Assembly (NCBI RefSeq): GCF_900176145.1
Contig: NZ_FWWY01000001.1
Location: 1,659,819 to 1,723,818, forward strand
Source of the DNA: Sulfobacillus thermosulfidooxidans DSM 9293
Lineage (GTDB): Bacteria > Bacillota > Sulfobacillia > Sulfobacillales > Sulfobacillaceae
Reading direction: 5' to 3'
Length of the DNA stretch: 64,000 nt
Shown here: positions 24,550 to 27,895 of the stretch, piece by piece
Numbering within the stretch: position 1 is the stretch's first letter
Layout: each line of letters begins with the position of its first letter
Position numbers and translations under genes: made by a program
The notes under the pieces: model-generated
The model's input: the letters and a program-made list of their open reading frames with translations, nothing else
Database searches by the model: none
What the model was told of the DNA's origin: nothing

Positions 24550-24672
24550 CAATTGAATTAATCGCCAAATCGTGTGCAAACACGAACGGGGGACCCAATT
24601 TTCGGGGCGTACGTAAGGGGGCAGCTTTCCGCCCTAGCCCGTCAGCTTACCTCGTCGGCATGGAAAGCTTGG
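24550..24672 (+). ncRNA. ydaO/yuaA-type (cyclic di-AMP) riboswitch
   Basis: The leader shows the conserved core of the ydaO class in order: CGCCAAATCG near 24563, a short hairpin (CGTGTGCAAACACG), GGGGGACCCA, GGGGC, and then CCTAGCCCGTCAGCTTACC and CTCGTCGGC ending at 24659. GGGGC can pair with GCCC(G), and the first GCC with the last GGC, as in known members. A TATAGT box near 24526 could serve as promoter. It is followed by an intrinsic terminator, so cyclic di-AMP binding most likely turns the gene off. It precedes the NitT/TauT permease. Confidence 0.82.
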
Positions 24673-24680
24673 ACAGTTGC

Positions 24681-24702
24681 CCGGGCTTGTCCCGGTTTTT
24701 TT
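24681..24702 (+). terminator. Terminator of the riboswitch
   Basis: CCGGG-CTTGT-CCCGG followed by seven T residues, only some 20 bases after the riboswitch core and about 65 bases before the permease start. It is the likely expression platform. Confidence 0.85.
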
Positions 24703-24766
24703 ATCGATTTGGTGATTTTTCGATTGATAGGAGATGAGAAGCTCAGTTTTTAAGGAGGTACGCTTT

Positions 24767-25621
24767 ATGGGTTATTCATGGGTGACGCCTGATGAGGAAC
24801 AGAAAAATGTCGTGGTGAATCAAAATCCAGAAGCCATGACGTGGGCGATGCAAAAAAAACCATATAAAGGTTATGTTCCCTGGTTAGTGGCTGTCATGGT
24901 CATTTTGGTATGGTGGTTAATTTCCGCTCTTCACTGGGTTTCATCCACAGCGCTCCCCTCGCCCGGCTCTGTCTTTCATGATTTCATTTCGGTTGCCACA
25001 ATCGGTTATAGCGGTGTTCCCTTATTAACGAGCACTTTATATAGCCTGGGGCGGATTACTGCAGGATTTTTAGCGGCCGTTGTTGTTGGGATTCCCATTG
25101 GATTTTGGATGGCGTCTTCAGACTGGGTATTTTTAGCCATTGACCCGTTATTACAATTCCTGCGTCCTATTCCCCCGCTTGCCTATATTCCTGTGATGAT
25201 TGTCTGGTTTGGCATTGGTGAAACCTCGAAAGTGATCCTGATTTTTTTCTGCACGATCCCCATTATCATCATTAGCGCCATGAGCGGTGTGAAAAGTGCT
25301 CAAGAGACCCGCATCCGGGCAGCCCAATGCCTTGGAGCCAACAAAAGACAGCTGTTCCGCTATGTGATTTTGCCATCGGCACTCCCGGAAATTTTTACGG
25401 GTATGCGTGTCGGCATCGGGATTGCGTGGACCTGTCTTGTCGCTGCCGAAATGATTGCAGCGTCCAAGGGACTGGGCTGGATGATTGAATCGGCAGGTAA
25501 TGAGCTGCAAATCGGGGTGGTTTTTGTTGGCATTGTTATCATTGGTCTTCTCGGTTACGGGATGGAACTCGTTATCCGCCGTATTGAACACCGAGTCACA
25601 CCGTGGAAAGGGAAAGCATAA
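24767..25621 (+). CDS. NitT/TauT-family ABC transporter permease
   Basis: Inner-membrane subunit of an importer of the nitrate/sulfonate/taurine class, 284 aa. Six hydrophobic helices are visible and the EAA loop reads EAA-like ETRIRAAQCLGANKRQLFRY with downstream LPSALPEIFTGMRVGIGIAW. The ATG at 24767 has AAGGAGG eight bases upstream. It is the first gene after the riboswitch. The binding protein and the ATPase follow in the same direction, so all three likely form one importer. The substrate cannot be read from the permease. Confidence 0.9.
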   Translation: MGYSWVTPDEEQKNVVVNQNPEAMTWAMQKKPYKGYVPWLVAVMVILVWWLISALHWVSSTALPSPGSVFHDFISVATIGYSGVPLLTSTLYSLGRITAGFLAAVVVGIPIGFWMASSDWVFLAIDPLLQFLRPIPPLAYIPVMIVWFGIGETSKVILIFFCTIPIIIISAMSGVKSAQETRIRAAQCLGANKRQLFRYVILPSALPEIFTGMRVGIGIAWTCLVAAEMIAASKGLGWMIESAGNELQIGVVFVGIVIIGLLGYGMELVIRRIEHRVTPWKGKA

Positions 25622-25774
25622 AGATTAAGGATTGTTGTCTTAAACAAGGCATGGCCTGCCATGGCTTTAAATCGCCACGCTTGTAGATCTTATGCCACCT
25701 TTCTCCCTGAGAAAGGATAACGTGACGGTTTTACCCTTACTGAAGCAGGCGTCTACTGCCGTAATGATGACGAC

Positions 25775-25786
25775 TTAGGCGCCTAA
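25775..25786. promoter_or_regulatory. 12-bp perfect palindrome before the binding-protein gene
   Basis: TTAGGCGCCTAA is a perfect palindrome 32 bases before the GTG of the binding protein. The 195-base gap also has CCTTTCTC-CCT-GAGAAAGG (25692-25712 region) and CATGGC-CT-GCCATG. It may be a regulator site or RNA structures that set the ratio between the permease and the binding protein. Confidence 0.4.
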
Positions 25787-25817
25787 CACCCATAACAATA
25801 CCAAAGGAGGATGTTTT

Positions 25818-26882
25818 GTGCGTGTATTCATGCGAACCAAGAAATCATGGCGATCTTTAATGATGGGAGCCTTCGCTCTACCTTTCCTAGTGGGGTTAGC
25901 TGGGTGCGGCAGTGCCACAGCTGCTACACAAGAACCGACGGTGACCATCGGCTATGAAAATGCTCCAGACCCTGAGTCGGTGGCGATTGAGCAGAATTTC
26001 TTTCAAAAATATATGCATGCACATGTCGTCTTGAAATATTTTTCATCAGGGCCCGAAGCCCTGACATCCTTAGCGTCTGGGTCGCTAGACTTCATGACTA
26101 CCTTAGGTAATCCGCCGACAGCCTCTGCGATTGCCCGCGGCGTGCCCTTGAAAGTGATATGGGCAATGGAACGCTACACCACTGCCGAAGGACTCGTCGT
26201 TAAAAATGGCTCTCATATTCGGTCCCTCAAAGATTTAGAAGGGAAAACGGTGGCTCTGGTGCAAGGCTCGACCTCACCGTTTGAACTGGATACTGCTCTT
26301 GAAATGCACCACATTCCCGTATCTTCCGTCCATATTGATAACATGGCTCCTCCCAATATGGTGGCCGCGTGGAAAACCAACCAAATTGAAGCAGCGTATG
26401 TGTGGGCACCCTTTTTGAACGAAATGCAGCAAGATCACGGTCATATCCTCATTTACGATCAAAACCAGGTCAATCAAGCCCCGATTTTTAATTTGGCAGT
26501 TGTCAATTCGCATTTTGCCAGCAAGTATCCTCAATTGGTGGATCAATTTATTCAGGCAGAAGAAGCTGGGGTCAAATTCTTCTATGCCCATCCCCATAAG
26601 TCATTCCAAGATATTGGGAAGTTGAATGGGATTTCGGCTGCCGATGCGAAAGCGCAAGCGCAAGGCTTACACTTTACGACATTGTCCCAGGAATTAACCC
26701 TGCGAAGATTGGGGACTCCCAGTACGGTGGCCGATTCTTTGGTCACAAAATCGTTAACGTCGGCAGCAACGTGGCTGAAACAGACGGGACAAATCAGTAC
26801 TGTCCCGGCGAATATGAGCCAGTATGTTGACCCTTCTTTTTGCCAAACGGTTTACAATCATTCTCTTAAAACGGGATCCTAA
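25818..26882 (+). CDS. TauA/SsuA-type ABC substrate-binding lipoprotein
   Basis: Extracellular solute-binding protein, 354 aa, with an N-terminal signal and lipobox (VGLAGCGS near residue 30). The body follows the TauA pattern: VTIGYENAPDPESVAIEQN, LASGSLDFMTTLGNPPTASA, GLVVKNGSHIRSLKDLEGKT and VALVQGSTSPFELD, then AAWKTNQIEAAYVWAPFL. This subfamily takes taurine, sulfonates and similar small anions. Start GTG with AAAGGAGG upstream. It is the second gene of the transporter set. Confidence 0.9.
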   Translation: MRVFMRTKKSWRSLMMGAFALPFLVGLAGCGSATAATQEPTVTIGYENAPDPESVAIEQNFFQKYMHAHVVLKYFSSGPEALTSLASGSLDFMTTLGNPPTASAIARGVPLKVIWAMERYTTAEGLVVKNGSHIRSLKDLEGKTVALVQGSTSPFELDTALEMHHIPVSSVHIDNMAPPNMVAAWKTNQIEAAYVWAPFLNEMQQDHGHILIYDQNQVNQAPIFNLAVVNSHFASKYPQLVDQFIQAEEAGVKFFYAHPHKSFQDIGKLNGISAADAKAQAQGLHFTTLSQELTLRRLGTPSTVADSLVTKSLTSAATWLKQTGQISTVPANMSQYVDPSFCQTVYNHSLKTGS

Positions 26883-26930
26883 ACGATGTCATCTCTGTGA
26901 TCAATAAAGTTCATAAAGGAGCATTTACGG

Positions 26931-27710
26931 GTGATAGAACTTCACAATGTGACGAAATTCTATCCACCGACTAAAAAAGGTGGGCAAGCTGTTTTAGCGG
27001 TGGATCATGTGGACTTGTCATTATGTCCTGGCCAATTTGTCTGTATTGTCGGTCCTTCGGGATGCGGAAAAACGACGATTCTTAATATGATGGCTGGGTT
27101 TGAACAACCGAGCCAAGGAGAGATTTTAGTAGACGGCACGGTCGTGGATAAACCGGGGCCAGAACGGGTAGTCGTGTTTCAGCAACCGTCTTTGTTTCCT
27201 TGGATGAATGTTTACGACAATGTGGCCTTGGGACTAACGATTCGCGAAGGGAAAAAATCTTCTCATGTCCCAAAAGTTCAGGCCATTATCGATACGGTCG
27301 GATTGTCTGGATTTGAACAGCATTTTCCCTACCAACTTTCAGGAGGCATGCAACAACGGGCAGCTATCGCTCGGGCCTTGATCACGGAACCGCAAATTCT
27401 TTTGATGGATGAACCGTTTGGCGCCTTGGATGCCCAAACCCGAGCCGATATGCAACGCTTTTTGTTATCCCTGTGGGAGCGGCTTAAACCCACAGTTCTC
27501 TTCATTACGCATGATGTCGAGGAGGCGATTGTATTAGCTGACCGGGTGGTGGTGATGACGCCACGGCCTGGCAAGATTGCCGCGGATATTCCGATTAATC
27601 TGGGAAGACCTCGTCAGTGGGACGTTACGCTGTCTTCGGATTTCTTGCATTACAAGAAAACTGTGTTAAACATTCTGAAACCAGGGCCAACCTCGAAACT
27701 CGCCCATTAA
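26931..27710 (+). CDS. TauB/SsuB-type ABC transporter ATPase
   Basis: Cytoplasmic ATPase of the importer, 259 aa. Walker A GPSGCGKTTIL, Q-loop VVFQQPSLFPW, signature LSGGMQQRAAIARAL, Walker B ILLMDEPFGALD and the H-loop FITHDVEEA are all present. Start GTG with AAAGGAG upstream, 48 bases after the binding protein. Completes the permease-binding protein-ATPase trio under the riboswitch. Confidence 0.93.
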   Translation: MIELHNVTKFYPPTKKGGQAVLAVDHVDLSLCPGQFVCIVGPSGCGKTTILNMMAGFEQPSQGEILVDGTVVDKPGPERVVVFQQPSLFPWMNVYDNVALGLTIREGKKSSHVPKVQAIIDTVGLSGFEQHFPYQLSGGMQQRAAIARALITEPQILLMDEPFGALDAQTRADMQRFLLSLWERLKPTVLFITHDVEEAIVLADRVVVMTPRPGKIAADIPINLGRPRQWDVTLSSDFLHYKKTVLNILKPGPTSKLAH

Positions 27711-27845: not shown

Positions 27846-27895
27846 GTGAAACTGAGTGAAACTGAGTGAAACTGAGTGAAACTGAGTGAAACTGA
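27846..27895 (+). repeat. Five tandem copies of GTGAAACTGA
   Basis: Perfect head-to-tail array of a 10-bp unit, 62-111 bases before the MarR start. The period equals one DNA helical turn, so each copy faces the same side. Because 10 is not a multiple of three, the array cannot encode a repeat peptide. Copy number could change by slippage and alter promoter spacing. Confidence 0.95.

Follow-up and report, generated by a model that had tools for sequence, protein, structure and literature searches.

A cyclic di-AMP riboswitch upstream of a taurine-type ABC importer operon in Sulfobacillus thermosulfidooxidans and its relatives, with a probable role in osmolyte uptake

The riboswitch and the importer operon

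Sulfobacillus species are acid-loving bacteria, and cyclic di-AMP (c-di-AMP) is a messenger of osmotic stress. In the 64 kb stretch of DNA analysed here (the window), an operon encoding a permease, a TauA-like binding protein and an ATPase, in that order, follows an element of the c-di-AMP (ydaO/yuaA) riboswitch family, RF00379, which is the sole Rfam family to reach its gathering score in the window. The exact limits are 24553 for the start of the aptamer and 27710 for the end of the operon (Table 1). The element matches the covariance model over its full length (1-134), with 61.7 bits against a gathering score of 38 (E 6.9e-12). A preliminary description of this DNA had recognised the ordered ydaO/yuaA core from the sequence alone and proposed a covariance search; its motifs correspond to the conserved core seen in the cmscan alignment, and the known pairing of the family covaries among relatives.

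Table 1. Features of the importer locus in the window, and loci of a second RF00379-associated operon in related genomes
Feature	Position	Strand	Basis
c-di-AMP (ydaO/yuaA) riboswitch aptamer, RF00379	24553-24676	+	cmscan; covariation over 21 orthologous leaders
Loop-tail pseudoknot, 5' strand AGCTTTCC	24623-24630	+	complementary to 24662-24669
Loop-tail pseudoknot, 3' strand GGAAAGCT, just 5' of terminator	24662-24669	+	complementarity, covariation
Intrinsic terminator (expression platform), 5-bp G+C stem 24681-24695, T7	24681-24702	+	hairpin search; layout in family
Shine-Dalgarno AAGGAGGT of permease gene	24752-24759	+	sequence
ABC permease, TauC-like	24767-25621	+	PF00528 (BPD_transp_1), E 2.5e-27
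TauA-like substrate-binding lipoprotein	25818-26882	+	NMT1 domain, TIGR01729, PDB, AF2/Foldseek
ABC ATPase, SaoA/TauB-like	26931-27710	+	PF00005 (ABC_tran), E 6.9e-34; NCBIfam matches below cut-off
RF00379-ComA-like-(dehydrogenase)-PanD-like locus	L234 5272-6731		
RF00379-ComA-like-(dehydrogenase)-PanD-like locus	L240 455-2752		
RF00379-ComA-like-(dehydrogenase)-PanD-like locus	L246 325-2608		
RF00379-ComA-like-(dehydrogenase)-PanD-like loci	L252 and L280	minus	

Over the 21 orthologous leaders, the consensus structure is formed by standard pairs in 91% of cells, and both sides have changed in 14 of 33 pairs. Compensatory cells number 41, against 12.5 in shuffles, and the signal is lost once the partners are slid by 1-3 columns. 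The loop AGCUUUCC pairs with the tail GGAAAGCU in a pseudoknot that takes part in this covariation, with changes on both sides in four of its eight pairs.

The permease reading frame is listed from 24734 (24734-25621); translation more probably starts at the ATG at 24767, since this codon is preceded by the Shine-Dalgarno sequence and the homologues start with MGYS. The preliminary description had assigned the transporter to the taurine/sulfonate class. The class is right, and the nearest NCBIfam names are TauC for the permease (PRK10160, 262 bits) and TauA for the binding protein (TIGR01729, 178.6 bits), both under their equivalog cut-offs (342 and 304.25, respectively). The binding protein also has a weak OpuAC match. 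Beyond the operon, the 10-mer GTGAAACTGA occurs five times in tandem (27846-27895), either upstream of the start given for a MarR gene or overlapping it.

The genome (3.86 Mb) carries two diadenylate (c-di-AMP) cyclase domains and three further RF00379 copies. The genes that follow these copies, named by reading the sequences, encode an SPS-like glycosyltransferase and two hydrolases, one of the 3D/PG-binding type and one of the LysM-NlpC/P60 type.

Terminator and direction of the switch

A clean terminator had been described after the riboswitch, and it is indeed there: a CCGGG-CTTGT-CCCGG hairpin followed by seven T residues. Such terminators are not rare by themselves (3 found, against 4.5 expected in shuffles); a G+C hairpin with a U tract after the aptamer recurs, however, in 17 of the 19 family loci. 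In the ligand-free state, the minimum free energy fold of the window leader (-50.6 kcal/mol) beats the best fold in which the terminator is forced (-44.8 kcal/mol), which agrees with an OFF switch. The two folds differ little or not at all in many homologues, and folding energies by themselves are therefore a weak argument. We infer that the leader binds c-di-AMP, and it would be off at high c-di-AMP, as fits both the attenuator layout and the known riboswitch class.

Two relatives (G022 and G027; loci L099 and L101) present a variant layout, in which the riboswitch is followed by a hairpin lacking a U tract, directly before the Shine-Dalgarno sequence of the permease gene. This layout suggests a translational version of the same switch.

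Conservation of the riboswitch-importer pairing

We searched for the binding protein and the permease in 34 genomes of the family, and for the binding protein also in GTDB 220 contigs. The importer proteins fall into two groups, a riboswitch-type clade that includes the window's importer and a sister clade. RF00379 lies upstream of the permease gene in 21 of 23 distinct loci of the first clade, and in none of the 12 sister-clade loci where the leader region is visible. Carriers of the pairing span six genera and two unplaced metagenome-assembled genomes, and all seven genomes of the window's genus that have the importer keep the riboswitch.

The two exceptions in the window's clade are G005 and G020. 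The riboswitch was likely lost in G020, since the tree nests this genome among carriers and the locus is still flanked by the phosphatase, MarR and DAGK-like genes found beside the window operon, while the leader is gone. The tree is consistent with a single origin of the pairing. At least seven riboswitch-bearing loci lack the window's neighbouring genes, and the switch thus stays with the operon when the surroundings differ. Chance pairing of riboswitch and operon is ruled out by these loci and by the 21/23 conservation. We also considered whether the His_Phos_1 gene belongs to the system; it is no more than a syntenic neighbour, and no similarity to the genes upstream of the ComA-like loci described below was detected.

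Could the window leader be a decayed or non-switching relic? It scores below the best copies in the same genome (95.1 and 84.8 bits), and G005 and G020 appear to have lost the element. Against this stand the conserved core, the covariation across 21 leaders, the conserved terminator and the retention throughout the genus, which together make a relic highly improbable.

The binding pocket and its substrate

In a PDB search, the nearest solved sequence to the binding protein is E. coli TauA (6ssy, E 2e-33). The AF2 model (pLDDT 86) likewise has 6ssy as its best Foldseek match (E 9e-28, TM 0.69/0.81), followed by SsuA (E 1e-19). The taurine contacts described for E. coli TauA are Q30, G61, G79, E106, T132 and D205 (PMC6906117). 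Four of these six are kept in the window protein (G61, G79, E106 and T132), as is W176, while Gln30 is replaced by Glu and Asp205 by Asn in every relative that covers these positions. The sister clade has the same contact residues; the two groups differ at position 32, which is Ala in the riboswitch-type proteins and Gly in those of the sister clade.

These two invariant replacements could signify a changed specificity, for another osmolyte or small zwitterion such as hypotaurine, cysteinolate, beta-alanine or betaine, and the scores below the equivalog cut-offs and the weak OpuAC match would agree with this. However, the other five residues are those of TauA, and the same E30/N205 pair is found in importers encoded beside Tpa-Ald, that is, beside genes of taurine catabolism. 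A Glu protonated at pH 2 could moreover stand in for Gln towards the sulfonate, and possibly serves the pocket in this way. Pure acid adaptation is at most a candidate explanation of E30/N205, which a Paraburkholderia homologue shares together with E106A and T132Q. On balance we regard a different substrate as quite unlikely. The pocket is predicted to bind taurine because sister-clade importers with nearly the same pocket adjoin Tpa-Ald in three loci, and this gene neighbourhood is the best evidence for a taurine pocket.

Taurine as food or as osmolyte

Is the importer a feeding system? In the sister clade, G028 carries TauABC-permease-Tpa-Ald-Xsc-Pta (with two nearly identical Xsc genes), G040 carries TauABC-Tpa-Ald-Xsc-Pta, and in G002 Tpa-Ald accompanies TauABC while a partial Xsc is located on a separate contig; none of the three importers has the riboswitch. 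Taurine degradation clusters, or parts of them, lie beside riboswitch-less TauABC genes at L158-L159, L165 and L160. Xsc, whether above the curated cut-off or as a partial gene, is found in none of the 23 riboswitch-type clade genomes, and degradation genes are absent beside the importer at the window locus. Xsc is also undetectable in 10 of the 13 sister-clade genomes, and the contrast between riboswitch and Xsc corresponds to one split in the tree, therefore not to many independent events.

Uptake for nutrition, with taurine or other sulfonates serving as a source of sulfur, nitrogen or carbon or their sulfur as a source of energy and with c-di-AMP control being incidental, has been proposed for Sulfobacillus in genome papers insofar as the uptake itself is concerned (PMC4378227, PMC4062416), and E. 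coli TauABC and SsuABC are sulfur scavenging systems (PMC6906117). The window genome also encodes a class-III aminotransferase that shares 63% identity with Tpa from G028 and might transaminate taurine, though the gene lies beside urease and adenine deaminase genes. Homologues 62-68% identical occur in many genomes of the family, and we do not take this enzyme as diagnostic of taurine degradation. A nutritional role is at odds with the lack of Xsc throughout the riboswitch clade genomes searched and with the restriction of importer-linked degradation genes to the riboswitch-less sister clade; a query with E. coli TauD, in a search that had no positive control, gave no match either. Sulfide-oxidising acidophiles, besides, would hardly need a further source of sulfur. 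We therefore hold a nutritional role to be unlikely.

The preliminary description had instead suggested that the importer brings in a compatible solute such as taurine rather than a sulfur source. Comparative genomics favours this osmolyte role, through the 21/23 linkage and the confinement of Xsc to genomes of the riboswitch-less sister clade, and several further observations lend it weight. No OpuAC-type binding protein other than that of this importer, and no BCCT carrier, was found in the genus, whereas control genomes were matched in both searches. More than 100 RF00379 loci surveyed in the family precede wall hydrolases (the majority), LysM proteins, osmotic genes and the taurine importer, classes assigned by similarity to representatives named by reading rather than by a family scan. 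Two studies describe taurine as an abundant compatible solute in acid mine drainage, including in Richmond Mine biofilms (PMC4378227, PMC6396713). Published views on its role in Sulfobacillus are divided between food and osmolyte: uptake was taken as feeding in one case (PMC4378227), while osmoprotection is cited in the other (PMC6396713).

Among the other targets in the survey, an SPS-like glycosyltransferase lies downstream of RF00379 at L001 (in the window genome), at L220 and at some 27 other loci, in many of which an SPP-like HAD phosphatase comes next; these are probable loci of sugar compatible-solute synthesis under c-di-AMP. RF00379 is also found upstream of KdpA (L221, in G020), and in G007 it precedes an OpuC-type osmolyte importer (L232).

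We thus consider it probable that the window holds a c-di-AMP attenuator riboswitch acting on a three-gene importer of taurine, or of a very close zwitterionic sulfonate, with an osmolyte role. In K+-replete, turgid cells, where c-di-AMP is high, the bound aptamer would let the terminator form, and synthesis of the importer would stop. With falling c-di-AMP, the leader would refold and the terminator would be disrupted; the importer would then be made, and the cell would take up taurine and retain it as a compatible solute.

A second RF00379 operon with a possible role in taurine synthesis

In five genomes of the family (G007, G030, G031, G005 and G026), RF00379 precedes a gene for a ComA-like phosphosulfolactate synthase (Table 1). 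The best solved relative of this protein is 1u83, and scores of 233 and 215 bits fall short of the cut-off for archaeal ComA (280). A phosphoglycerate-dehydrogenase-like (SerA-like) gene follows in all but G007, and then comes a gene for a PanD-like decarboxylase; the three such proteins that were scored exceed the PanD cut-off. The residue equivalent to Arg54 of E. coli PanD is Leu in each of the five PanD-like proteins, which keep Lys9, Gly24-Ser25, Thr57, Tyr58 and Asn72.

Judging by its gene content, this operon could serve de novo taurine synthesis. The route would run from PEP and sulfite through phosphosulfolactate, sulfolactate, sulfopyruvate and cysteate to taurine, and would require, besides the ComA-like, dehydrogenase and PanD-like activities, a phosphatase and an aminotransferase. 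Beta-alanine or sulfolactate is a possible alternative product. We tentatively propose a c-di-AMP-run taurine economy in the Sulfobacillaceae, in which riboswitches may limit both TauABC import and, in several genera, synthesis by ComA, a SerA-like sulfolactate dehydrogenase and a PanD-like enzyme; within it, the pyruvoyl decarboxylase, with its Arg54 to Leu change, would act on cysteate.

Comparison with known systems and implications

What is known of the c-di-AMP regulon mostly concerns K+, betaine-type solutes and enzymes of the cell wall. The window element has the same core and tail pseudoknot as the ydaO/yuaA riboswitches of B. subtilis ydaO and of the B. thuringiensis kdpFABC leader (PMC6488665), and likewise lies, with a terminator, upstream of a transport operon. 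Its target here is a taurine-type ABC importer, and a literature search found no report of such a target or of any link between c-di-AMP and taurine uptake. PMC4342826, considered as a precedent, places tauBC under TPP riboswitches, not c-di-AMP ones.

The importer shares with E. coli TauABC (TauA structure 6ssy, PMC6906117) its three-part composition, its nearest fold and sequence, and the pocket residues E106, T132, G61, G79 and W176. Unlike the E. coli system, the window operon has the order permease, binding protein, ATPase and no tauD, its pocket carries Q30E and D205N, its leader contains a c-di-AMP riboswitch and its binding protein is a Gram-positive lipoprotein. In the OpuA and OpuC importers under c-di-AMP control in Bacillota, the messenger limits the uptake of osmolytes, as we propose for the present importer, but the binding protein is of a different class. 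The riboswitch class and the transporter class were already known; what appears to be new is the regulatory link between the two and its meaning for the physiology of the cell.

If the proposed reading holds, the c-di-AMP regulon gains taurine import and perhaps taurine synthesis, and the findings suggest a taurine route in bacteria that uses a PanD-like decarboxylase. The pairing offers a genetic, directly testable answer to the question of whether taurine is food or osmolyte for Sulfobacillus in acid mine drainage, and the osmotic tolerance of these organisms is relevant to biomining with saline water.
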